Assembly: GCA_019637395.1 (NCBI GenBank)
Contig: JAHBVR010000001.1
Coordinates: 124,001-188,000 of the forward strand
Direction of reading: 5' to 3'
DNA: 64,000 nucleotides
Source of the DNA: Vulcanimicrobiota bacterium
GTDB lineage: Bacteria; Vulcanimicrobiota; Xenobia; Xenobiales; JADMJV01
The position numbers were made by a program, and so were the translations under genes. Numbering within the stretch: the stretch's first letter is position 1; each line of letters begins with the position of its first letter. This document shows, piece by piece, positions 539 through 52,047 of the stretch. Under the pieces are notes generated by a model that was given only the letters and a program-made list of their open reading frames with translations, searched no databases and was not told the DNA's origin.

Positions 539-606
539 TCTTCCACATCAAAACCGGTGAGCGAATGCTCGGGCATCAGAAGCTGATCGTCCCCCACTTC
601 GGCCAT
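526..606 (-). pseudogene. MazE-type antitoxin C-terminal fragment
   Basis: A 26-codon frame begins with ATG at 606 and stops at 526, overlapping the toxin remnant by 13 nt. It encodes a short acidic peptide ending FDVEEWSW. This resembles the acidic, Trp-containing tails with which AbrB-type MazE antitoxins bind MazF. No DNA-binding N-terminal domain precedes it, so the antitoxin has lost its operator-binding part. The overlap with the toxin frame is typical of a mazEF operon and supports the view that both are remains of one locus. Confidence 0.4.
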
Positions 607-641
607 CTATCAATCTTCATAACCACAACCCGTCCGGAGGT

Positions 642-1523
642 TTATTGAACCGGAGCTTTGATCAGCAAGCCGATTTCAAACTCCTCGGCGATGCTGCAGT
701 AAACCTCGAGCAGATCGAGGAGTTCGGCAAACACCTGAGCGGCTGGCATGGACTCGAAATGAAGTTCCGTGCCGGACTCGTTGCTCGCTCCCCAGGTGGG
801 ATAGCGGCCGACCAGCACATCGAACCCGATCTGTTCGCCCCGGCTGTCCTCGCCGAAAACGCCCATGTCTTCCCGCCACAAGCGGCGAAATACATAAGGG
901 ATCGGATCCTGGCCGGCCGGCTTGACCATGATCCCGTGCCGACTCAAATAGAGCGAATAACCCTCGTTGAGAAAAATCAGGCCGGGCGGACCCTCGCCGT
1001 TCCAGGCGTAAAACTGCATGGGGCCTTCGGGAAGGGTCGCCCCCGAATCGGCGGCCTCTAACTCCTCGTCGGTGCGCGGCTCGAAATAGGGACGGCCATT
1101 CTCTTTAGGGATGGCCACCGGCCAGGTCAATTCGCCCAACTTTACACGCAAGCCCAGCAAATCCGCCAGGAAAGAGGCGGTCTGGTGAGGAGCCACCGGC
1201 GTACCGTCGCGCGGAAAGCGCGTCCACAGAGAGTCGGGAACGAGTTCGTTGAGGGCCCGGAAAAAGATGTCCAGGTTATCCACCTGGCATTTGCAGCCCT
1301 CCACTTCGGCCATGATATTGACGGGACAATCCGCGCAATAGTCAATAATGCGGGGATTGCCCTCGAGAATAAAGAGCTGGCGCAAATGCTCCCATTCGAA
1401 CTGAGGTCTCCCATCCATGTGATACTCGTAAATCGTCTCCTGGGCATGACGGCAAGGACGGAAGGTATAGTTGAAGATTTCCAGCGCCAATTCCCAGCGC
1501 TGCGTGTGCGGAGTATCAAGCAT
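642..1523 (-). CDS. Uncharacterised protein with cysteine cluster
   Basis: This 293-residue protein starts with ATG at 1523 and has no signal peptide or membrane segment. I do not recognise the family. Residues about 60-80 contain DYCADCPVNIMAEVEGCKC, that is CxxC followed by CxC, which could bind a metal; another Cys lies near residue 24. The rest is acidic with many aromatic residues and no repeats. It is transcribed divergently from the phosphoesterase at 1583, leaving only about 60 nt for both promoters. Coding reality is supported by the long open frame and the absence of a better frame on the other strand. Confidence 0.65.
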   Translation of the reverse strand: MLDTPHTQRWELALEIFNYTFRPCRHAQETIYEYHMDGRPQFEWEHLRQLFILEGNPRIIDYCADCPVNIMAEVEGCKCQVDNLDIFFRALNELVPDSLWTRFPRDGTPVAPHQTASFLADLLGLRVKLGELTWPVAIPKENGRPYFEPRTDEELEAADSGATLPEGPMQFYAWNGEGPPGLIFLNEGYSLYLSRHGIMVKPAGQDPIPYVFRRLWREDMGVFGEDSRGEQIGFDVLVGRYPTWGASNESGTELHFESMPAAQVFAELLDLLEVYCSIAEEFEIGLLIKAPVQ

Positions 1524-1582
1524 TGCCAGGAGGTTCGCAGCCGGCAGAAGGTGGCCCTCCCGCGCTCGACAAAGCCGCCCCC

Positions 1583-2290
1583 ATGCGCTGCTTTGCCATC
1601 AGCGACCTGCATCTGTCCTTCACCAGCAATAAGCCGATGGATCGCTTCGGCGATCACTGGCTCAAGCACTGGGAAAAGGTCGAATCGTCCTGGCGCCGGC
1701 GGATCAGCGAAGAAGATCTGGTGCTGCTGCCGGGAGACCACAGTTGGGCTCTCAAGCTCGAACACGCGGGCCCCGACCTGGAATTTATCCAGAACCTGCC
1801 CGGCCACAAAGTGCTGGTGCGCGGCAACCACGATTACTGGTGGCAGAGTCTGGGCAAGGTGCGCAAACGCTTTCCCGGCCTTCATTTCCTGCAGAACGAC
1901 GCCATCCGCATCGGCCCCGCCGCCCTGTGCGGTACCCGTGGCTGGGATCTTCCCGGCAGCCACGGCTTTGAGGATGCCGAGGACGAGAAAATTTATCGGC
2001 GTGAACTCGAGCGCCTGAAGCTGGCGCTGGAAGCTCTGGATAAGGAGGCGCCGGTGCGGGTGGCTCTGCTCCACTACCCTCCCCTCTTTCCCTACCGGCG
2101 CGAGAGTGAGTTTACCCAACTGCTCGAGGCTTTCAAAGTCGATATCTGCGTCTACGGCCACCTGCACCGCAACGGCGGACACCGGCCTTTCCAAGGCCAG
2201 CAAAATGGAGTGCGCTATTACCTGGTTTCTTGCGATATGATCGATTTCGAACCTATCGAAATCGGGTGGCCGGAAAGTGCTACCGCGTAA
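1583..2290 (+). CDS. Calcineurin-like metallophosphoesterase
   Basis: A 235-residue protein with all blocks of the calcineurin-like phosphoesterase fold: DLHL (D-x-H) near the N-terminus, GDH, GNHDYWW, a histidine in LLHYPP and GHLHRN near the C-terminus. These residues coordinate a dinuclear metal centre that hydrolyses phosphoesters. Its substrate is unknown; the short, single-domain form resembles the uncharacterised cytoplasmic phosphohydrolases found in many bacteria. I chose the ATG at 1583 because the family begins with MRxFAISDLHL; an upstream in-frame start at 1523 would add residues unlike the family. The 3' end overlaps fdhD by 14 nt. Confidence 0.8.
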   Translation: MRCFAISDLHLSFTSNKPMDRFGDHWLKHWEKVESSWRRRISEEDLVLLPGDHSWALKLEHAGPDLEFIQNLPGHKVLVRGNHDYWWQSLGKVRKRFPGLHFLQNDAIRIGPAALCGTRGWDLPGSHGFEDAEDEKIYRRELERLKLALEALDKEAPVRVALLHYPPLFPYRRESEFTQLLEAFKVDICVYGHLHRNGGHRPFQGQQNGVRYYLVSCDMIDFEPIEIGWPESATA

Positions 2291-3092
2291 ACGACTGCTG
2301 ACCGTGAGGCGGCGCGACCAGGCAGGCGCGGCCCACAAAGACCAGTTGCTGCTGGAAGAACCCTTGCAGCTCACGCTGCAGGGAGGGGGAAGACGGCTGC
2401 GACTGGCCACCATTCTGCGCACTCCCGGCCACGACTACGAGCTGGTCCTGGGCTATCTCTGCGCCCTGGGGCTGATCCACTCCCCCGAGGACGTGAAAGA
2501 ACTCGACTATTGCGCCACCCCCCAGGATTTCAATCACCTCACCGTGATCTTCCGGGGAGCTATTCCCGAAAAAGCCCTCCAGTTGCGCTCCCAAGAATGG
2601 GTGCATGGAGGTTGTGGCGCTTGCGGCCAGGATTCGTTGGCAGTGACTCCACCCCATCAGGTGGTGCCTGTTCCCCCTTGGCAGCCCGATTGGTTGTGCG
2701 CACTTCCGGAGCAACTGCGCCGCCACCAGGATTTGTTTGAAAAGTGCGGTGGCAGCCACGCCGCCGCACTGGTTCGACCCGGCGGCCAACCGGAGCTGGT
2801 CTACGAGGACGTAGGCCGGCACAACGCTGTCGACAAAGTAACGGGACGATTGTTCATGGAGAAAAAGAGTGCCGAGGGCAACTGGCTGCTCCTCTCGGGT
2901 CGTTCCGGCTTCGAGCTGGTGCAGAAGGCGGTTCAGGCCCGTTTCTCGGCGGTGGCCAGCGTAGGCCCACCCAGCAGCCTGGCCCTGAACTACGCCAGCC
3001 AGGCGGGACTCACCCTGGTGGGGTTTCTGCGCGGCGACCGCTACAATGTTTATACTGAGCGATTGCCCAGCAGCTCTATCAGTGCGGTCTAG
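2277..3092 (+). CDS. fdhD: Formate dehydrogenase accessory sulfurtransferase FdhD
   Basis: FdhD passes sulfur from the cysteine desulfurase IscS to the molybdenum cofactor of formate dehydrogenase, an essential activation step. The 271-residue product carries the family hallmarks: CGACG (residues about 113-117, the sulfur-carrying cysteines), KCGGSHAAA, EDVGRHNAVDK and SGRSGFELVQKA. The start is GTG at 2277, inside the end of the phosphoesterase gene, suggesting translational coupling. Formate dehydrogenase itself is not in the window, but mobA (4368) and a moaD-moaE fusion (62476) belong to the same cofactor pathway. Confidence 0.93.
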   Translation: MLPRKRLLTVRRRDQAGAAHKDQLLLEEPLQLTLQGGGRRLRLATILRTPGHDYELVLGYLCALGLIHSPEDVKELDYCATPQDFNHLTVIFRGAIPEKALQLRSQEWVHGGCGACGQDSLAVTPPHQVVPVPPWQPDWLCALPEQLRRHQDLFEKCGGSHAAALVRPGGQPELVYEDVGRHNAVDKVTGRLFMEKKSAEGNWLLLSGRSGFELVQKAVQARFSAVASVGPPSSLALNYASQAGLTLVGFLRGDRYNVYTERLPSSSISAV

Positions 3093-3312
3093 ACTGCGAA
3101 AACAGTAGCGCCAGTCTATGGCTCCGGCTGTGCCAAACAGGGCATTCGCCAGACGGTCAGTGGCACGGAAACCAGGCCCGCAGCACCAAAATTCCTGCCG
3201 GTGCAAATCTGCATGCCTGAACTGGTGGCTACGGTTCCTCTGCTAGAATCTTGCCGCTATTTTAGAATCGTTCGGATGCAGGGGGGCGCAAGGCGAAATC
3301 TAACCTTCGGGA
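3093..3312. other. Intergenic region, no gene recognised
   Basis: These 220 nt between fdhD and the secreted esterase contain no supported gene. Two copies of TAGAAT (about 3244 and 3263) could serve as -10 elements for the esterase, but neither has a convincing -35 box. I looked for a molybdenum-cofactor riboswitch because of fdhD and found no arrangement I could defend. Confidence 0.4.
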
Positions 3313-4101
3313 ATGCGTAAATTCAAAATCTTTCTTCTGTCCTTGCTCTGGCTCGGAAGCGCTCAGGCCGAACCTGGTCAACTGCTGACGTTCCCTATCG
3401 GACCTGGCCGGCCACCCAGTGTGAGCGGAAGCATCGACTACCGGCTCAACTACGAGAAGGAAAAGTTTTTCGTTTACCGGCCTCGGACCTACAACCCCGA
3501 TGAGACCTGGGGCTTAATCGTTTATATAAGTCCGAACGATAGCTGTCAGAGCATCCCCCCAGGCTGGGACGGCGTGCTCAAGGGGAACAAGCTGCTTTTT
3601 ATCTGTCCCCAAGGAGCGGGCAATGGCTGTGAGATGCGCCGCCGCTTGGGCCTGGGAGTGATGGCGGCTTTGGAGATGATCCAGACCCACAGAATTGATC
3701 CTAACCGCATCTACGCGGCCGGCCTTTCGGGGGGAGCGCGCACCGCCGGGAAACTGGGTTTCATGCAGAGTGACCTGTTTCACGGGACGATTCAAAATTG
3801 CGGGGCGGACTTTTACAAAGCCGTGCCCGTGGTCAAAGCCACTAACTTTACCGATAGCAACGGCAACGCCAATTACGGCGTATTCAAGGCCAGCCAGCGC
3901 GAAATCGAAGCCGCCAAGAATAACCAAAAGTTTGTTTTCATTACCGGCCGTGGGGATTTCCGATACGGCAATATTTCCGACATCTATGAAGGCGGCTACC
4001 AAGCGGAAGGCTTCAACTGCAAAATGATCGATGTGCCTGGAATGGGTCACGAAGACTGCAAACCTTCAGCCCTCCAGCAGGCCCTGGATTTCCTTAAATA
4101 A
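3313..4101 (+). CDS. Secreted alpha/beta-hydrolase (esterase/depolymerase-like)
   Basis: The 262-residue protein starts with a clear signal peptide (MRKFKIFLLSLLWLGSAQA, cleavage after AQA), so it acts outside the cytoplasm. The mature part has an alpha/beta-hydrolase layout: nucleophile elbow GLSGGAR (Ser at about residue 140), a late GRGDF segment that may place the acid, and GMGHEDC with the catalytic His near the C-terminus. The overall pattern resembles esterase/PHB-depolymerase-like (LpqC-type) proteins. The substrate is unknown. Several cysteines may form disulfides. It stands alone, with the next gene convergent. Confidence 0.75.
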   Translation: MRKFKIFLLSLLWLGSAQAEPGQLLTFPIGPGRPPSVSGSIDYRLNYEKEKFFVYRPRTYNPDETWGLIVYISPNDSCQSIPPGWDGVLKGNKLLFICPQGAGNGCEMRRRLGLGVMAALEMIQTHRIDPNRIYAAGLSGGARTAGKLGFMQSDLFHGTIQNCGADFYKAVPVVKATNFTDSNGNANYGVFKASQREIEAAKNNQKFVFITGRGDFRYGNISDIYEGGYQAEGFNCKMIDVPGMGHEDCKPSALQQALDFLK

Positions 4102-42326: not shown

Positions 42327-44189
42327 TCAGGAACCCCTCGAAAACTTGTGAAGATCCGCCAAGGGTCCCCCCGGCTTCCGCCAGGTCCCGAGCAGTTCCA
42401 GGATTTGCGGGCTTTCTTCCAGGGCGGGAGCGTGATGAGGCTTGGGGCGGGCGTCGATGATCAGCGGCCCCCGGCAGCCCCAGTGGCGCTGGTAGGTGGA
42501 AGGTGACACTCCATACACGTCGGCGGCCGGATTGGAGCGAGTGAAGGTCGTCCAGAGAAAATTGTTCAGGCTGCGGGCCGCGAACCGGCTGTCCTGGCAG
42601 ACAACCCAAAGGGGAAAGGCGCACAGCGGGTGGTCGAGAGGCAGCCCCTCCAGCGGCTGAAGGCTCGGATCAGCTCCGCGTTCCGCATCGAACGCAAAAG
42701 CGGGTCCCTGGATGGCCAGCACGCCCGGTAGACAGCAGCGTGGCTCCGAGAAACCGGGAGGCAGGCGAAACTCACCTTGGCAGGTACTGGTTAGTTGGCG
42801 CAGCGGCTCCCCGACGGCCGCGATCACCAGTTTAGACCCCTGATTGAGCTGGCCGCCCGAATAGTCCAGTGTATCGATGGTCGTCTGGGTGTGAAAATGC
42901 AGGTCACGCCGCCAATCCACCCGCTCGAGCATGTGCTGGAAGAAATGCCTGATATCGCAGCAATCCAGACGCGCGTCGTCCTCCTGGGCGGCCAGCCAGA
43001 GGTACTTGGCCAGCGATAACTGCCCCTGGCCCAGGATAGCATTGGCGCAGGTCAGCAGCTCTTGGGGGCGCCGCCGTTTTTGAAAGGGGGTGTAGCGTTC
43101 GCTGGCCACCGCCAACAGCAAAGGATGCACTCCGGCCGCGTCGACCGCGTGCACCTGCTTGACCCCAGGCAGGACGGTGGGCAAAACCGGGTCGGTCATT
43201 TGATGGATCAGTTTGCCGAAAGTAGTGTCTTCTTGAGGCGGCCGGCCTACGGTAGTGACCGGCCAGATGGCGTCGCTGCGATGGTAGACCGCTTCCACAT
43301 GCAGGACGGGAAAGGGATGAGCCAGGCTGTAGTAGCCCAGATGATCTCCAAAGGGACCTTCGGGCTTGGTCAACTCCGGGTCAATCCAGCCCACGATAGC
43401 AAAATCGGCCTCGGCCGCCAGCGCCAGCGGGCTCTCCGGGCAGGGGCAGAGAGTCACCGGCGCGCCCGCCAGAGCCCCGGCAAAAACCAGCTCCGGAATG
43501 GTTTCGGGCAGGGGCATCACCGCCGACCAGGCCAGCGCCGGAGGCCCGCCCACGAAAACGTTGACGTAGAGTCGCTGAGAGCGGGCGGCGGCGGTCTGAT
43601 GATGAATGCCGATGCCGCGATGAATCTGGTAATGCAGGCCGGCTTCGCGTTCCGGCAGGTAATCGTTGCCGGCCAATTGCACCCGATACATGCCCAGGTT
43701 ACCGTGCATCCAGCCCGGCTGGAGCGGATCTTCGCTGTAGACGGCCGGCAGAGTGACGAAAGGACCGCCGTCCTGAGGCCAGCTGATGAAGCGCGGCAGG
43801 CTGGCCAGGCTCGTCTTGTGCTGCAGAATCGGCCCGCTCCGGCGCCGGCGCGGCAGCAAATGCGGCAGGCTGAGAGGCAGGTCCCAGTAACGCCAGGGCT
43901 GGCGTAGCATAGCCGCCGGGTCGGCCTTGAGGCGCATGGCTTTCTCCACTCGCTGGAGACCGTGACGCAGCAAGTAACGGGCCCGTTGCGGCGATCCATA
44001 AAGGTTTCCCACCACGGGAAAGCGGCAGTCGCGCACCCGTGGAAAAAGCACGGCCGGCCCGCCCTGGTCGTAGACATAGCGCAGCACCGCGGCCATTTCC
44101 AACTCGGCCCGAATCGGTTCCTCAAAGACCAGCAATTGATTGGTGCGCCGCAGGTCGGCCACCACCCCGGACATACTACGGTAAGCCAT
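42327..44189 (-). CDS. UbiD-family decarboxylase
   Basis: UbiD enzymes use prenylated FMN to (de)carboxylate aromatic or unsaturated acids. The 620-residue protein has the family opening MAYRSMSGVVADLRRTNQL, the central NVFVGGPPALAWSAVMPLPE, EGPFGDHLGYYSLAHPFPV (catalytic Glu region) and VHAVDAAGVHPLLLAVA. It is longer than E. coli UbiD (about 500). I chose ATG 44189 because it opens exactly like UbiD; an in-frame start at 44246 is possible. No ubiX cofactor-synthase gene is in the window. The substrate is unknown. Confidence 0.88.
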   Translation of the reverse strand: MAYRSMSGVVADLRRTNQLLVFEEPIRAELEMAAVLRYVYDQGGPAVLFPRVRDCRFPVVGNLYGSPQRARYLLRHGLQRVEKAMRLKADPAAMLRQPWRYWDLPLSLPHLLPRRRRSGPILQHKTSLASLPRFISWPQDGGPFVTLPAVYSEDPLQPGWMHGNLGMYRVQLAGNDYLPEREAGLHYQIHRGIGIHHQTAAARSQRLYVNVFVGGPPALAWSAVMPLPETIPELVFAGALAGAPVTLCPCPESPLALAAEADFAIVGWIDPELTKPEGPFGDHLGYYSLAHPFPVLHVEAVYHRSDAIWPVTTVGRPPQEDTTFGKLIHQMTDPVLPTVLPGVKQVHAVDAAGVHPLLLAVASERYTPFQKRRRPQELLTCANAILGQGQLSLAKYLWLAAQEDDARLDCCDIRHFFQHMLERVDWRRDLHFHTQTTIDTLDYSGGQLNQGSKLVIAAVGEPLRQLTSTCQGEFRLPPGFSEPRCCLPGVLAIQGPAFAFDAERGADPSLQPLEGLPLDHPLCAFPLWVVCQDSRFAARSLNNFLWTTFTRSNPAADVYGVSPSTYQRHWGCRGPLIIDARPKPHHAPALEESPQILELLGTWRKPGGPLADLHKFSRGS

Positions 44190-44252
44190 GCCCTCCGCGT
44201 TCAAGGCGTCTTCCCCTGGGACCCCCCCAGAGTCCGGCGCTGACACCTGAGA

Positions 44253-44681
44253 TCAAGAATCCAGCGGATTTTCCCAGCGCAGGCCGGGAAATCGAGCAAA
44301 GCCGCGATCGGCGCTTTGCAAAATCAGCCCGTGCTCTGTCGCTAAAGCTGCCAGGTGAGCATCCGGGACTGCATTTCCCCCTCTCCCTGCAGCCAGGTAG
44401 CGGCCAAGGAGAGCTTGATGGTTATGGGTTGGCCCCGGAATCCAGCTATTCGGCGCCTCCAGCCAGGCCTCAACCTGAGCCCAGGCCTGCTCCACAGTGC
44501 GGGGCTGCTGCAGAATCCTGGGATTCGTCACCACCCTCAAGAAGGCCAGCAAGGATGTCCAGGGGAGCCCCACCGGAGGGGCGTCATTGAACCGATCGTT
44601 GAGCCAGGTATGGGCTCGCTGATGTTGGTTCATTTCGGCGATGTGCGCATAGACCAGGAGATTGGCGTCAATCAGAATCAA
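44253..44681 (-). CDS. vapC: VapC-type PIN-domain toxin
   Basis: A PIN-domain ribonuclease toxin of 142 residues. Acidic active-site positions are visible in MILIDANLLVYA (Asp5), VPDAHLAALATEHG and QSADRGFARFPGLRW. The LLAFLRVVTNPRIL segment places it in the VapC subgroup that has this block. It starts at 44681 and overlaps the antitoxin stop by 4 nt (44678-44681), the usual TA coupling. It sits 64 nt upstream of ubiD on the same strand. Confidence 0.88.
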   Translation of the reverse strand: MILIDANLLVYAHIAEMNQHQRAHTWLNDRFNDAPPVGLPWTSLLAFLRVVTNPRILQQPRTVEQAWAQVEAWLEAPNSWIPGPTHNHQALLGRYLAAGRGGNAVPDAHLAALATEHGLILQSADRGFARFPGLRWENPLDS

Positions 44682-45026: not shown

Positions 45027-47342
45027 ATGCAACTGATTCATCTCGCTCCCCAGGCCACTCAGTGCGTCCTGCCGCCCTGCTCTGAAAACCAGGGCATCCT
45101 GGTCGGGCTCAGCGCTCATCATCATCAACTGTTGGCGCAGGCCTGCCAGCCTCAGGCCTCAAGCGCTCGAGCACAGTTGCTGGAGAGTCTGCAGGCCCAG
45201 GCCGACGAAACTCCGCAGAAGTGGTTCCAGGCCGTCGATTGGCTCGAGCAGGTTCCGGCGGATTTTCTCGCCCGCTTGACGGCCTGGGCGCGCCAACAGA
45301 GGGCCCGCCAGTTGGCCGGACAATGGTCGGTGACCTACCTGCCCAGCCAGGAGCTGCGCCTGGGAGTGCCGCCTGGAGCGGCACGCTGGGTCACCTCCGA
45401 TCACAACGCCGAGGGAGAACCTCTGCTCCCCGTTCTGGCGGCCGCCTGGAAGCCCGACCTGTGCAAGTTCTGGTTGGATCGGCCGGCTTTCTTCTCGGCC
45501 GATCCGCGTCACGTTCCCCAGGCCCGCTTGCTACGCGAACTGGACTCGTTATGCGCCCAAGAACTGATTCGCCTGCGCGGATTGGATCTGGATTCGGCCG
45601 TGCTGGAAACCCTGGCCGGCTGCGATCTGGTGGCCGAAATCGGCTGGCTGCAAAAGCCCGATTGGCCGGCCAGCCGGGTGCTGCCTCAGGCACCGGGAGC
45701 GAGCGCGGTCATCTCGCTGGCCTCTGCCTCAGGAGTGCAGCTGATCACCCTGCAAAGCTCGCAAATGTGGCGCCGGCCGGGCTTTCTGTCACGCGCTTTT
45801 TTCTATCTGGTGGAAATGGGGCTGTCGGTGGACCTGCTGGCCACTTCGCAGACCAGCGTAACCATGACTCTGGACCCGGGACAATCGATGACCGGCCAGC
45901 AACAGTTGCTGCTGGAAAGCAAACTCGACTGCCAGGTGGATTGCCTGCAAGACTGCGCCTCCATCCACTTTCTGGGCAACAAAATCCGCCAAATGCTGCC
46001 GCAGCTCGGAGCCGCCTTCGAACTCTTCGACGAGCATCCCATCCACCTGGTCAGCCAGGCCTCCAGCGACGTCAGCCTCAGCCTGGTGGTTCACGAAGAT
46101 CAGGCTGAACGCCTGCTCATCCCGTTGCACGCGCTACTTTTCGGCGGAGGCCAGGAGTCCGAAGTCTTCGGACCCACCTACCAGCAGTTGGAAAGCGGCG
46201 CCCTGCAGCGCCGGGTGGCGGCCGCCCACAGCTGGTGGATGGACGAGCGCGAGCGCCTGCTGCAAGTGGCTCAGGACGGCCCGGCCTATGTTTATCATCT
46301 ACCCAGCGTGGAGGTGCGGGCCCGCGAAGTGATGCGCCTGAGCGCGGTGGAGAACTCACTCTACGCTCTGAAGGCCAACCCGGAGCCGCAGATCTTGCAA
46401 AAACTGGTGGACCTGGGCTTTGGCCTGGAATGCGTCTCGCCGGGCGAACTGGAGCGGGCCGCCTGCGCCGGCCCACGGCGTCTTTTCACTCCCAATTACG
46501 TGGGCCCCAGCGAGTACGAACTGGCCTTTGGCCAGGGCTGCTGGGTCACCCTGGACAACCTCGAGGCGCTGCGCCTCTGGCCGGACGTCTTCCGCGGCCG
46601 GGAAGTCCTTTTGCGTCTGGACATCGGCACCGGCTCGGGCCATCACAAACACGTGCGCACGGCTGGCGATAGCTCGAAATTCGGCATCAGCTCGGATCAG
46701 TGGCCGGAACTGAAAAGCCTGCTCAAAGAGCATCAGCTGACCGTGTTGGGGCTGCACAGCCACGCCGGCAGCGGCATCACGGATGCGGAACACTGGGTGC
46801 GCACGGCCCAATTTCTCTACCGGGCCGCCGAAGAGAATTTTCCGGAAGCACGCGTGCTCAACCTGGGCGGCGGCCTGGGCATTCCCGATCGCCCGGGCAA
46901 GCAGAGGCTGGATTTTGACCGGCTGCATCAATCGCTGGAAGCTTTCCTGGCCCTGCACCCAGGCCGGCAGCTCTGGCTGGAGCCAGGCCGCTACCTGGTG
47001 GCCGAAGCCGGGGTTCTACTGGCCCGTGTCACGCAGATCAAGCAGAAGGGCGAAAAGCGTTACCTGGGTCTGGAAATCGGTATGAACAGCCTGATTCGTC
47101 CGGCTCTTTACGGTGCCTACCACCCTATCGTCAACCTGAGCCGCCTGCAGGAAGCTCCGGCCTGGAAGGTGGATGTGGTCGGACCCATCTGTGAAAGCGG
47201 GGATGTGCTCGGCCACGACCGCTGGATGCCCGTCACCGAGGTAGGAGACGTGCTTCTAATCGACAACGCGGGGGCCTACGGCGCCAGCATGGCCTCGCGC
47301 TACAATCTGCGCGAGCCGGCCCGGGAGCTTTGCCTTTCCTAG
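45027..47342 (+). CDS. lysA: Diaminopimelate decarboxylase fused to a degenerate aspartokinase
   Basis: The C-terminal 370 residues are a complete diaminopimelate decarboxylase, the last step of lysine synthesis: YALKANPEP with PLP Lys449, LGLHSHAGSG, LNLGGGLGIPD, LEPGRYLVAEAG and VGPICESGDVL. Residues about 130-390 match the back half and ACT regulatory domains of aspartokinase (FFSADPRHVPQARLLREL, VDLLATSQTSVTMTLDP, ASSDVSLSLVV). The kinase start is gone: there is no KFGGTSV and no RGGSDTSA. Bifunctional AK-DapDC enzymes occur in Xanthomonas relatives; here the kinase is probably inactive and the ACT part may give lysine feedback. The ATG at 45027 lacks a strong ribosome site. Confidence 0.85.
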   Translation: MQLIHLAPQATQCVLPPCSENQGILVGLSAHHHQLLAQACQPQASSARAQLLESLQAQADETPQKWFQAVDWLEQVPADFLARLTAWARQQRARQLAGQWSVTYLPSQELRLGVPPGAARWVTSDHNAEGEPLLPVLAAAWKPDLCKFWLDRPAFFSADPRHVPQARLLRELDSLCAQELIRLRGLDLDSAVLETLAGCDLVAEIGWLQKPDWPASRVLPQAPGASAVISLASASGVQLITLQSSQMWRRPGFLSRAFFYLVEMGLSVDLLATSQTSVTMTLDPGQSMTGQQQLLLESKLDCQVDCLQDCASIHFLGNKIRQMLPQLGAAFELFDEHPIHLVSQASSDVSLSLVVHEDQAERLLIPLHALLFGGGQESEVFGPTYQQLESGALQRRVAAAHSWWMDERERLLQVAQDGPAYVYHLPSVEVRAREVMRLSAVENSLYALKANPEPQILQKLVDLGFGLECVSPGELERAACAGPRRLFTPNYVGPSEYELAFGQGCWVTLDNLEALRLWPDVFRGREVLLRLDIGTGSGHHKHVRTAGDSSKFGISSDQWPELKSLLKEHQLTVLGLHSHAGSGITDAEHWVRTAQFLYRAAEENFPEARVLNLGGGLGIPDRPGKQRLDFDRLHQSLEAFLALHPGRQLWLEPGRYLVAEAGVLLARVTQIKQKGEKRYLGLEIGMNSLIRPALYGAYHPIVNLSRLQEAPAWKVDVVGPICESGDVLGHDRWMPVTEVGDVLLIDNAGAYGASMASRYNLREPARELCLS

Positions 47343-47463: not shown

Positions 47464-47683
47464 GTTTTGAGCACCATGTCCGAGTCTTGGCCTCTATAGC
47501 CCGGTAACATCGGTAACCCGCTCGACCTGAGACGGTCGGGCAAGGTGCTCTAGAAGGCAGGAGAGTCTTGGATCCTCAGCCGCTTTGGTGAATTTTTTTC
47601 GCCAAAAATAGGGAAGGATTCTCATGTCAACCGCCGAAGGCCGGGCCCATCGCCTTGGCCGGAGAGGCATCTGGAGGTATTTA
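47464..47683 (+). other. Long 5' leader of yjbQ with hairpins
   Basis: About 220 nt separate the promoter from the preferred start codon. The leader contains CGACC-TGAGA-CGGTCG-like pairing near 47520-47537 and TTTGGTGAA paired with TTCGCCAAA near 47584-47606. It matches no riboswitch class I can name. Part of it (from 47624) is in frame with yjbQ and could instead be coding. Confidence 0.35.
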
Positions 47684-48247
47684 GTGGAGGCCAATTTCTT
47701 AACCGAAACGACCAAGTACACGAACGGGAACGGTCACAGCAACGGTAACGGCAAAAGCCCGATCGCGGTGATCAACGATCCCGAACTTCGCGCCCAAGGT
47801 ACGCCCGGAGTTTACGTGTCCAAAATGGTCGTCGAGACCCGCCGCGGTCCCGAGTTCATCGACATTACGGAAACAGTCCAGGAATTGCTCAGCAAGACCG
47901 GCGTCAAAGAAGGCAATATCTTTGTCTACTCGCGTCACACCACTTGCGGCATCGTCATTCAGGAGCACGAGCCCCTGTTGATTCAGGACATGTACAAGAA
48001 GCTAGAGCAACTGGCTTCGCCCGCTGAGGATTATCATCACAATAACTTTGATATCCGCACGGTCAACATGTGCGACGACGAGTGCGCCAACGGCCACGCC
48101 CACTGTCAGCATCTGTTCATCGGCTGCTCGGTTCATCTTCCGGTGATGGACGGCCACCTGGCTCTGGGCCGCTGGCAGCGCGTCTTCATCCTGGAACTGG
48201 ACCGGCCCCGCACCCGCGAGATCATCGTCCAGGTGATGGGCATCTAA
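47684..48247 (+). CDS. yjbQ: YjbQ/UPF0047 family protein
   Basis: The 187-residue product has a low-complexity Asn/Gly start (TNGNGHSNGNGKS) and then the UPF0047 fold: EFIDITETVQELL, VYSRHTTCGIVIQEHEP, DDECANGHAHCQHLFIGCS and ALGRWQRVFILELDRPR. Family members (YjbQ) have weak thiamin-phosphate synthase activity, but the true role is unsettled. I prefer GTG 47684 because GGAGG lies 7 nt upstream; ATG 47624 would add 20 residues rich in Arg. A terminator follows at 48265. Confidence 0.85.
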   Translation: MEANFLTETTKYTNGNGHSNGNGKSPIAVINDPELRAQGTPGVYVSKMVVETRRGPEFIDITETVQELLSKTGVKEGNIFVYSRHTTCGIVIQEHEPLLIQDMYKKLEQLASPAEDYHHNNFDIRTVNMCDDECANGHAHCQHLFIGCSVHLPVMDGHLALGRWQRVFILELDRPRTREIIVQVMGI

Positions 48248-48347: not shown

Positions 48348-48692
48348 CTAAGGCAGACCCAATAAAACCTTGAGTATCTCCTCCACTTGATTCATCGTCT
48401 TTGGACTGACCACGCCCAACCTGCGAATGAACCGCTGCTTGGAAAGCGAACGGAGACCATCACAAAGGAGACTGGATGCCACCGTCAGGCCCCCTTCCGG
48501 CGGTTCCAGGCGAACGTGATGAGGCAACTTTCGCAGCCTGGATGTCATCGGAAGACCGTATATCAAGCCGGCCGGCCCCTGATTATACACAGTCTCCGAC
48601 ATCACCAGAACGGGACGAGTGCCGGCCTGTTCGTGGCCTCTGACCGAGTCCAGGGCAGTCATCCACACTTCCCCACGTTCAATTCTCGTCAC
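48348..48692 (-). CDS. MazF/PemK-type endoribonuclease toxin
   Basis: A 114-residue toxin with intact family blocks: IERGEVWMTALDSVRGHEQ, TRPVLVMSE, YGLPMTSRLRKLPHHVRL and LRSLSKQRFIRRLG. The RGEVW start, the TRP segment and PMTS contain the residues used for mRNA cleavage in MazF. I chose GTG 48692, where the family N-terminus begins; a longer frame to 48746 overlaps most of the antitoxin tail. The overlap of 14 nt with the antitoxin is typical. Confidence 0.85.
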   Translation of the reverse strand: MTRIERGEVWMTALDSVRGHEQAGTRPVLVMSETVYNQGPAGLIYGLPMTSRLRKLPHHVRLEPPEGGLTVASSLLCDGLRSLSKQRFIRRLGVVSPKTMNQVEEILKVLLGLP

Positions 48693-48945
48693 GAAGACCG
48701 TCGCCCAGGGTGCAATCCCAGGCCGCGTGCTCAAGGCGCAACTCATCGCGCTCTTCCTCGCTCAGACAGCCATAAGCTGCGTTAACGCCTTCCAGGAAAC
48801 GGCGGCGGCGCTCCCGCTCAATCGCCTGAGCAAGAATCGACTGCATACTCTCTCCGGACTCCTGGGCCAGGTTTCGCAGTATCTTGTGCACCTTGGGGTC
48901 AATCCGAACGGTCGACATATCTCCAGTAGACATTTCTGTAGACAT
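48679..48945 (-). CDS. Antitoxin of the MazF-type pair
   Basis: The 88-residue protein has a ribbon-helix-helix-like N-terminal part (MSTVRIDPKVHKILRNLAQE, then SMQSILAQAIERERRRRFL) and an acidic C-terminus (EERDELRLEHAAWDCTLGD) that would wrap the toxin. ATG 48945 has AGGT 8 nt upstream. Two further ATGs, each starting an MST repeat, lie within the first 11 codons, so the true start is uncertain. It precedes and overlaps the toxin gene. Confidence 0.8.
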   Translation of the reverse strand: MSTEMSTGDMSTVRIDPKVHKILRNLAQESGESMQSILAQAIERERRRRFLEGVNAAYGCLSEEERDELRLEHAAWDCTLGDGLRDEN

Positions 48946-48955
48946 CAATGTCTAC
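48911..48955. promoter_or_regulatory. Probable antitoxin operator: GTAGACAT repeats
   Basis: GTAGACAT occurs at 48926-48933 and 48938-48945 and inverted (ATGTCTAC) at 48948-48955; the last two form a perfect palindrome with a CA centre. A near copy GTCGACAT lies at 48911-48918. The two direct copies are 12 nt apart. The array covers the antitoxin start codon, so antitoxin or TA complex binding there would autoregulate the operon. Confidence 0.65.
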
Positions 48956-48994
48956 CTGCAGGTTGAGCACGCCTCCATTCAGAACGCCGCTTGG

Positions 48995-49816
48995 GTGAAC
49001 GACTGGAGCCTGCTCCATACCACTCGCTACCGCTTCGACAGGGCCGTGGCGCTGGGTCCGCACGAAATCCGCCTGCGCCCCGGCGGTCCGCTGGCGGGCG
49101 AACTCAGCCACTACCGTCTACGTGTCTGGCCTACCCCCAGCATCGCTCAGTGGCGCCTGGATCTGTGGAACAACCGGGTCTTTCAAGCCTGGTTCGCCCG
49201 GCCGGTCAGGCAGTTGACGATCACCAATCAGTTTCGCTTTCATCCCCTGCCGGTCAACCCGTTTGGTTTCGCGGTCGAATCCACGGCGGTCAATTTTCCC
49301 ATTGAGCTGGACCCGGAACTGCGGCACAGCCTGGCCCCCTATCTCGAACTGTCCCAAGACGCCGCTTGGGTGGAAGGGTGGCTGAACTACGAGGGTCTCA
49401 GCGTTTCGCTCATGCTGGAACTGAACCGCTGGGTGAACGAAAACATCGGCTATGAAGCCCGCCAACAACCCGGCATCCAGAGCCTCTCCGAAACCTTGCA
49501 CAGAGGTCGCGGCTCCTGCCGGGACACGGCCTGGCTGCTGGCCTTGGGACTGCGCCGCCTGGGCTATCCCAGCCGTTTCGTTTCGGGCTACTGGCTGCAG
49601 GTGGATAACGCCTCGGCCGAACTCCACGCCTGGACCGAGGTCTATTTGCCCGGCGCGGGCTGGCTGGGACTGGACCCCACCGCCGGACTGCTGGTCTCCA
49701 ACCAGCACCTGCCGGTAGCCCGCTCCCCTCTGCCGGAACAGACGGCCCCCATACGAGGCAGCCATGACGGGGCCGAAAATCAACCGGAGTTTCGCGTGCG
49801 AGTCCGTAAATGCTGA
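48995..49816 (+). CDS. Transglutaminase-like protein (N-terminal domain plus TGc)
   Basis: The 273-residue protein begins with a Bact_transglu_N-type beta domain (LLHTTRYRFDRAVALGPHEI) and ends with a transglutaminase core: GRGSCRDTAWLLALGLRRLG (Cys), ELHAWTEVYLPGAGW (His) and GLDPTAG (Asp). It has no signal peptide. It is the first gene of a three-gene operon with the ATP-grasp/alpha-E protein and a second transglutaminase; in that known gene set the enzymes are predicted to make or break peptide bonds. I chose GTG 48995; no ribosome site is obvious and a longer start cannot be excluded. Confidence 0.82.
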   Translation: MNDWSLLHTTRYRFDRAVALGPHEIRLRPGGPLAGELSHYRLRVWPTPSIAQWRLDLWNNRVFQAWFARPVRQLTITNQFRFHPLPVNPFGFAVESTAVNFPIELDPELRHSLAPYLELSQDAAWVEGWLNYEGLSVSLMLELNRWVNENIGYEARQQPGIQSLSETLHRGRGSCRDTAWLLALGLRRLGYPSRFVSGYWLQVDNASAELHAWTEVYLPGAGWLGLDPTAGLLVSNQHLPVARSPLPEQTAPIRGSHDGAENQPEFRVRVRKC

Positions 49817-52047
49817 AACTGCCGCAATCCGACTGGCTGGAGCTACAGTTCTCGCGCTATGGACTGGACGAACTTCAGCAGCGCTGGCAAGAGATCGCCC
49901 GGGGCATGAAGGACGCCCAGCCCCACATCGGGCAACGGCTTTGGGGCCTGGATCCGGTGCCGGCTCTGCTGGCCGAAAGCGACTGGGCGCAACTGGAAGC
50001 AGGCCTGAGCCAACGAGCCCAGCTTCTCAACCTGCTGCTGCAAGACGCCTACGGCCAACAGCAAATGCTGCGCGAAGGCCGGCTGCATCCCGCGCTCTAC
50101 TACAACAACCCGGCCTGGCTTCAGCCCTGCCACGGCATGCTCGACTCCGAATTGGGCCGGCTGCTTTTCTATGCCGTCGATCTGGTGCGCGACGAGGCCG
50201 GCCAATGGTGGGTCTTGCGCGACCGAGCGGGCACCCCACACGGTTTCGGTTCGGTGCTGAGCAACCGGCGCTGGATGGCGCGCGCCTACCACGAAATCTT
50301 TTCGGAGCAACTCCTGCAACCCCTCGCCCCCGCCTATCAGAGTCTGCGCTTCTCTCTCAGCGAGCTGGGCCAGCGCACCGGCGAAGCGCGCACCGTCATG
50401 CTCACCTCGGCGGCCGACTCGGCACGCTCGGCCGACGACGCCGGCCTGGCTAACTTTTTAGGTTGCGCCCTGGTGGAAGGCGAGGATCTGACGGTGCGCA
50501 AGGGCCGGCTTTATCTTAAGCTGCTGGAAGGACTGCAACCCGTCGATTTATTGCTACGGCGCATTCCCGACCGTGATTGCGATCCACTCGAACTGGGCAG
50601 CAGTGGTTGGCACGGCGTGGTGGGAATGCTCCAAACGGTACGCGCCGGCAATCTGGTGGTATGCAATTCGCCGGGTAGCGGTTGGCTGGAGACCCCCGCT
50701 CTCTCTCAGAGTCTGGCACAGCTGGCTCCGGCACTGCTGGGCCAACCTTTGTTACTACCTGACTTGCCGGCCCATTGGGGCCAGGCACTACCGGAGGGAC
50801 GCGATTGGGTAGCCCGCCGCTTCGCAGGCGGCCCTCCCCTGCTGCTGCCCGAAATGGAAACAACCGATCAGGATCGCTGGTGGAAATCTTGCCGGCCCGA
50901 GCAGTGGGTCTTCCAACGCTATGTCCGGCCCGGTCGCTTCCCATGCTGGTACCAAGGCCAGTTGGAAAATTTTTCGGGCGTAGTTCGCTGCTTTCTGCTG
51001 GCCACGGCCACTGGCTATCGTCTCATCCCGGGCGGCCTGGTGCGCATGCGCCCTCCGGGCGGCAAACTTTTTGCCAAAGACCTCTGGCGCCTGGCCCGAA
51101 AGGAAACGGAACCGGCCGCGGCTGCCCCGATCACGCCGGTGGACCTGGAGCTATCCCGCGGAGGCGGAGACGTACCCAGCCGAGTCGCCGAACAATTCTA
51201 CTGGTTCGGACGCTACCTGGAGCGTTGCGAACACCTGCTGCGCTTTGCCCGCACGCTGTTGGCCCGGCAAACAGTGGACAGCGGTTCCCAGGCCCGGGCC
51301 GACCTGGAATGCCTGCTGGCCAGTCGCGCGGAATTCGGACCGGACTTGGTGAGCTGGGTCAACGGCCAGGAACCGGACCAGTTGCAGTCGTTGCTTTCCC
51401 ACATGCAAAGACTGGGAACGGCTCTGCGCGACCGCGTCAGCGCCGATATGCCGCGCATTCTGGCCGCTCTCCAGCCGCTCTCCGAGCACCTGGAAGGTCG
51501 CCACCTGCTCGGCTATTTGGAAGAATTGAGCATCCCTCTGTGGGGACTGGTGGCCATCGCTCGCGAGAGCCTCTACCGAGGCTATGGTTTTCGCTTCCTG
51601 GAAATCGGGCGCCGCCTGGAACGCGCCCTGCTGACCTGCGAATTGCTGGAATCCCTGGGGACGGAGAGTCCGAGTTGGGGCGTGCTGGACATGCTGCTGG
51701 AGGTGACCGACAGCGGGCGCACCTACCGCCGCCGCTATCCCCGCCTGGAATGGATGCCCGTGCTCGACCTGCTACTGGCCGACGACACCCATCCCCGCTC
51801 CCTGGCCTTCCAGTTACGTGTCCTGGAGGAACATTTCGGGCTCTTGCCCGCCCGTTCCCGGGTCGGGCTGCCGGCTCACCAGGAAGCATTGCTGCGAGTT
51901 CGCGCCCCGCTGCAACTTTGGCGTCCTCCCCAAGCGCCTCCGCTCCAGCAACTCAGCCAGCTGCTGCCGGCCATTTCCCAAGGACTGGGCTCGGTTTATC
52001 TGAGCCACCTGACGCCTCGTTTCCAGGGAGGTTCGGATGCGCTATAA
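49810..52047 (+). CDS. Circularly permuted ATP-grasp ligase fused to alpha-E domain
   Basis: The 745-residue protein joins two domains that are often separate genes. Residues about 20-430 are a circularly permuted ATP-grasp (DUF404/DUF407 type), with LNLLLQDAYGQQQML, FYAVDLVRDEAGQWWVLRDR and GGLVRMRPPGGKLFAKD. Residues about 440-740 are the all-helical alpha-E domain (DUF403), with VAEQFYWFGRYLERCEHLLR. ATP-grasp members form carbon-nitrogen bonds and are predicted to ligate amino acids or peptides; the substrate is unknown. It overlaps the transglutaminases on either side by 7 and 11 nt. Confidence 0.88.
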   Translation: MLKLPQSDWLELQFSRYGLDELQQRWQEIARGMKDAQPHIGQRLWGLDPVPALLAESDWAQLEAGLSQRAQLLNLLLQDAYGQQQMLREGRLHPALYYNNPAWLQPCHGMLDSELGRLLFYAVDLVRDEAGQWWVLRDRAGTPHGFGSVLSNRRWMARAYHEIFSEQLLQPLAPAYQSLRFSLSELGQRTGEARTVMLTSAADSARSADDAGLANFLGCALVEGEDLTVRKGRLYLKLLEGLQPVDLLLRRIPDRDCDPLELGSSGWHGVVGMLQTVRAGNLVVCNSPGSGWLETPALSQSLAQLAPALLGQPLLLPDLPAHWGQALPEGRDWVARRFAGGPPLLLPEMETTDQDRWWKSCRPEQWVFQRYVRPGRFPCWYQGQLENFSGVVRCFLLATATGYRLIPGGLVRMRPPGGKLFAKDLWRLARKETEPAAAAPITPVDLELSRGGGDVPSRVAEQFYWFGRYLERCEHLLRFARTLLARQTVDSGSQARADLECLLASRAEFGPDLVSWVNGQEPDQLQSLLSHMQRLGTALRDRVSADMPRILAALQPLSEHLEGRHLLGYLEELSIPLWGLVAIARESLYRGYGFRFLEIGRRLERALLTCELLESLGTESPSWGVLDMLLEVTDSGRTYRRRYPRLEWMPVLDLLLADDTHPRSLAFQLRVLEEHFGLLPARSRVGLPAHQEALLRVRAPLQLWRPPQAPPLQQLSQLLPAISQGLGSVYLSHLTPRFQGGSDAL

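Follow-up and report, generated by a model that had tools for sequence, protein, structure and literature searches.

Bacterial fusions of aspartokinase (AK) and diaminopimelate decarboxylase (DapDC, or LysA) have been described from Xanthomonas, Legionella, and Salinibacter ruber (PMC2705460). These bifunctional enzymes form the family NF006515 (PRK08961) and are about 860 amino acids long. In the window, which is the 64,000-nucleotide stretch of DNA that we analyzed, an open reading frame with an ATG start (45027..47342, + strand) encodes a protein of 771 amino acids that matches NF006515 and has the same domain order, from the C-terminal lobe of the kinase to the end. It is 39-42% identical to the AK-LysA proteins of Legionella adelaidensis and Xanthomonas sacchari. 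Unlike the NF006515 enzymes, however, it lacks the N-terminal lobe of the kinase, the KFGGTSV and RGGSDTSA motifs, and the lysine of GAKVLHP. Also, its score of 715 bits (residues 137-770, aligned to model positions 222-859) falls short of the family's curated cut-off of 802 bits. Because it is an AK-DapDC by descent but fails the kinase features and the cut-off, we describe it as a putative kinase-dead derivative (pseudo-aspartokinase-ACT-ACT-DapDC) rather than as a bifunctional enzyme.

The protein can also be compared to the monofunctional enzymes. The stub of the kinase's C-lobe and the ACT pair align with aspartokinase III (AKIII, or LysC) from E. coli (2j0w and 2j0x; the alignment to 2j0w covers residues 136-372), and the best match to a monofunctional aspartokinase is to NF006570, which is the model for lysine-sensitive AKIII (93 bits). 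Unlike AKIII, the window protein has no kinase active site and is fused to a decarboxylase. The catalytic domain is complete with its motifs in place, as in monofunctional LysA (E. coli 1knw; 2yxx), but the window protein has about 400 extra N-terminal residues that include the ACT pair. To our knowledge, DapDC is not usually discussed as being regulated by ACT domains, and a full-text literature search, which was limited in extent, turned up no description of a fusion of ACT domains to DapDC or of an ACT-regulated DapDC.

The original prediction, from the DNA alone, was that LysA is fused here to an aspartokinase that has lost its kinase site, including KFGGTSV and RGGSDTSA. Our analysis agrees. 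No match to the first 221 positions of the NF006515 model was found in the window protein. When aligned with E. coli LysC, with AK-LysA from X. sacchari, and with three relatives from the same taxonomic order, KFGGTSV and the whole RGGSDTSA block are absent, and GAKVLHP reads RGLDLDS, so that the catalytic lysine is gone. D222 and R232 (E. coli numbering) are retained in the window protein and are absent in the sister genus. Among Pfam families, the protein contains two decarboxylase domains and an ACT domain, while the amino-acid kinase fold leaves a sub-threshold trace at residues 136-174. The remnant of the kinase's C-lobe is at residues 137-225 (45435..45701, +; FWLDRPAFFSADPRHVPQARLL...), with z scores of 8-18 in local alignments against aspartokinases. 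Nor does a neighboring frame conceal the N-lobe: when the aspartokinase model TIGR00657 was run against all six frames of the genome, this locus matched only at model positions 200-441. Given that the active-site motifs are absent, the window protein is not expected to phosphorylate aspartate, and by the same motifs the kinase half is a pseudoenzyme.

In place of the N-lobe, residues 1-136 (45027..45434, +) do not belong to any family that we recognized. The claim that this region is unrelated to kinases stands at the sequence level: it has no match in Pfam, hhalign gives a probability of 0.3% against profiles of the kinase N-lobe, and its alignments to kinases are no better than those of shuffled sequence (P = 0.048 in 1 of 15 comparisons and above 0.05 in the others). 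These results give no support for homology to the N-lobe. Neither do they back a pairing by eye of TYLPSQELRLG with RWWDARELLRV and of VTSDHNAEGEPLL with IASNSLGETVLL, which we do not claim. As to its origin, the region could be either a remodeled remnant of the kinase or new sequence. Residues 1-136 do resemble the shorter N-terminus from the sister genus (z = 2.1-4.6 in four comparisons), so the region had probably been altered already in the common ancestor of the two genera. AlphaFold's confidence was low (pLDDT of 41.5 for residues 1-400 and 43 for the whole protein), with a shallow alignment.

Residues 226-372 (45702..46142, +) form two AKIII-like ACT domains, as judged by a match to Pfam's ACT_9 and by alignment to E. 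coli LysC (44 of 147 positions identical). This bears out the earlier recognition of an aspartokinase end with two ACT-like parts. In E. coli AKIII, lysine-insensitive mutants have been found at M318, G323, T344, S345, and T352 (PMC10464499). All five residues, which are lysine-site positions of the AKIII-type ACT pair, are identical in the window protein (M247, G252, T273, S274, and T281, in a stretch of ACT1 at 45765..45869, +). At the position of T352, the relatives with kinase motifs have serine. Two other residues of AKIII differ: S321 is replaced by arginine and E346 by glutamine, and glutamine is also found in the fusion from genome G141, whose kinase is mostly kept.

We used sequences from the same genus to estimate dN/dS for each part of the protein (Nei-Gojobori method; the ratios are approximate, since a number of the synonymous distances approach saturation). 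The ratios were 0.07-0.17 for residues 1-136, 0.02-0.08 for the stub of the kinase lobe, 0.06-0.17 for the ACT pair, and 0.04-0.06 for the decarboxylase. The pseudokinase-ACT half is under purifying selection, so it is a stable module that is not decaying now. Thus, the original description of the kinase half as decayed to a pseudoenzyme is right about the pseudoenzyme, which is found in several assemblies, but "decayed" does not cover all of it. Folding alone could account for such selection on a domain that is part of a fusion.

After a linker (residues 373-409 by alignment; 46143..46253, +), residues 410-771 (46254..47339, +) are the decarboxylase domain (PF02784, PF00278, and TIGR01048). 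As originally proposed, it is complete: it aligns with solved DapDCs over its full length (for 2yxx, E = 1.1e-51). The PLP-binding lysine is K449 (46371..46373, +) in YALKAN, which aligns with the lysine in FAQKAC of 1knw and FAVKAN of 2yxx. HSHAGSG and EPGR are present, as is CESGD (residues 722-726; 47190..47204, +), which aligns with 1knw and 2yxx. The score against TIGR01048 (lysA) is right at the cut-off of 297.9 bits (296.4 bits in the protein scan and 298.9 bits in the genome scan), and we consider the protein to be a member. We predict that the domain acts on meso-diaminopimelate. When we searched the genome (7.66 Mb in 36 contigs) with family models, the window gene was the sole match above the lysA cut-off. 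A second true LysA was not found elsewhere: four weaker homologs are all under the cut-off (the best has 214.7 bits), and one of these is a 678-amino-acid protein that resembles arginine decarboxylase. For the three of the four that we scanned, no NCBIfam decarboxylase model scored above its cut-off. With no other match above the lysA cut-off, and no model that fits the other PLP-dependent decarboxylases we scanned, lysine synthesis probably depends on the window gene.

The original prediction suggested a check for a separate, active lysC, and the genome has a monofunctional lysC with intact motifs that adjoins asd. The genome also encodes a ThrA-type fusion of aspartokinase and homoserine dehydrogenase (with KFGGTSL and RGGSDYTA), as well as dapA and dapF. 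With other aspartokinases to supply the first step of the pathway, the loss of the kinase would be affordable. The separate lysC is about 170 kb away from the fusion gene and is closest to the PRK08210 type, not the AKIII type, which leaves the fused ACT pair as the only AKIII-like pair that we found in the genome. DapG from Bacillus, a member of the PRK08210 type, is sensitive to diaminopimelate. Our literature search on DapG, ACT-LysA fusions, and lysine synthesis in the Eremiobacterota found nothing relevant. In one genome of the genus (G135, with an estimated contamination of 7%), there is an extra aspartokinase (L050) that is closest to the PRK06291 type; no such gene is listed for the rest of the genus. 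We found no known RNA elements, including lysine riboswitches, in the window, which gives no added support to control by lysine.

Our search for related genes covered genomes from the same phylum, along with a plasmid collection. The window genome and four others make up genus g1 of family f1 (uncultured Eremiobacterota), and genome G139 represents the sister genus g2. All four of the other genomes of g1 carry the fusion gene (79-92% identity); in one of them (G138), it is a fragment at the end of a contig, with the same N-terminal region as the window protein. The version from g2 is shorter still, at 694 residues. The kinase motifs are absent in G000, G135, G136, G137, and G139, present in G140 (family f2) and G145 (family f3), and mostly present in G141 (family f3). 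(The contig from G140 begins after KFGGTSV, so that motif lies outside its sequence.) The fusions from f2 and f3, which are neighboring families within the order, score above the NF006515 cut-off and keep recognizable kinase motifs. In other words, other families keep the motifs and all of the near relatives lack them, so the combination that would have undone the original reading, which was relatives with the kinase motif together with an assembly error, does not apply.

The fusion decarboxylases form a single clade with support of 98/99. (A first tree, with poor rows for L075 and L076, gave no resolution inside this clade.) A YjbQ/UPF0047 gene (47624..48247, +) lies directly downstream of the fusion gene in both genera of f1, and also beside the f2 fusion (L020). 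The clade and the neighbor shared with f2 argue for descent from an AK-LysA fusion as the same gene at the same locus, and as the f2 fusion has kinase motifs, they indicate that the kinase was lost in place. The tree unites the two genera of f1, but not strongly (87/90). Together with the common neighborhood and the common N-terminus, one loss is the simplest explanation, and the kinase was probably lost once, in the ancestor of f1. The pseudokinase module has persisted over at least the time in which a genus diverged, and probably over that of a family.

The divergent upstream neighbor, a UbiD-family decarboxylase gene (42327..44246, -), is also conserved in both genera of f1. Between it and the fusion gene is a PIN-domain gene (44253-44681, -), and after YjbQ is a PemK/MazF-like gene (48348-48746, -). 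We found no counterpart of either at the equivalent positions in the relatives, so these look like recent toxin-antitoxin insertions. Further along (48884-52047, +), a transglutaminase-like gene overlaps a gene with circularly permuted ATP-grasp and Alpha-E domains, and this pair is kept in two relatives (L006 and L007).

The fusions in family f3 vary. In L021 (G141, frame 571-3417), KFGGTSV is replaced by KFSGRSL and the lysine of GAKVLHP by proline, while RGGSDVSA is kept; here, the kinase half may have been weakened a second time, independently. In L019 (G145, frame 622-3420), AK-LysA is intact except that WTDVPG, as found in E. coli and Xanthomonas, reads WTGVPG (D222 to glycine). Six other members of f3 have lysC, but in three of them (G142, G144, and G146) we could not recognize lysA at E <= 1e-20, and in the others (G143, G147, and G148) the only matches are weak and resemble arginine decarboxylase; some of these genomes are incomplete. 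Most of the six also have dapA. Possibly, these bacteria are lysine auxotrophs that make diaminopimelate for their cell walls, or they have replaced the last step.

We think it fairly likely that the pseudokinase-ACT module is a lysine sensor that regulates the decarboxylase fused to it. The main rival is that this half is just a structural scaffold that holds the decarboxylase dimer together and does not sense any ligand. A packing role would fit with the stub beside the ACT pair being more conserved than the far N-terminus, and our computations give no sign of ligand binding. But a pure scaffold would not need the ligand-site positions of ACT1, which are unchanged, and we consider it unlikely that scaffolding is the whole story. 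Alternatively, the ACT pair might sense another metabolite of the aspartate family (threonine or meso-diaminopimelate), or several together. The specificity of ACT domains shifts easily, and S321 and E346 of AKIII do differ here. Because all five positions for lysine insensitivity are retained and the best monofunctional match is the lysine-sensitive model, we view a change of ligand as less likely than a scaffold.

The pseudokinase could instead be a regulatory partner of the separate aspartokinase, in mixed oligomers like those formed by the small subunits of α2β2 aspartokinases. Beta subunits of the ACT-only type do exist, and the fusion and the separate lysC occur together in each of these genomes with a complete fusion gene (five in all). 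But the separate LysC belongs to another subfamily, so its ACT interface should differ, and the two genes are far apart (the 170 kb given above); mixed oligomers seem quite improbable. Finally, a score below the NF006515 cut-off is what an assembly artefact or a recent pseudogene might give. The relatives refute this: the same architecture is present in the four other assemblies from the genus, even if one is a fragment, and a shorter version is in the sister genus, with purifying selection and a frame that is open throughout. We give this explanation almost no weight.

Returning to lysine sensing, the comparisons show that the gene descends from a bifunctional AK-DapDC whose kinase N-lobe and active site were lost, probably in the ancestor of family f1, which left the C-lobe stub and the ACT pair fused to an intact decarboxylase. 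We propose that lysine would bind at the dimer interface, to the AKIII-like site of ACT1, and that the resulting conformational change would act on the decarboxylase; most likely, abundant lysine would inhibit it. In most bacteria, meso-diaminopimelate, the penultimate product of the pathway, also goes to the cell wall, and the separate LysC is closest to the type whose Bacillus member responds to diaminopimelate. With this arrangement, diaminopimelate for the wall would still be made while lysine halts only its own last step. There is perhaps an even chance that the former kinase has become a dedicated allosteric subunit, that is, a built-in lysine sensor that moved feedback from the first step of the pathway to the last and left diaminopimelate for the wall. 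More broadly, these fusions offer a series for the change from a catalytic to a regulatory domain, with the kinase motifs kept (families f2 and f3), the kinase gutted (genus g1), or the kinase gutted and the protein shortened further (genus g2). They also yield a claim that can be tested, on the point at which lysine feedback may act in bacteria whose walls require diaminopimelate.
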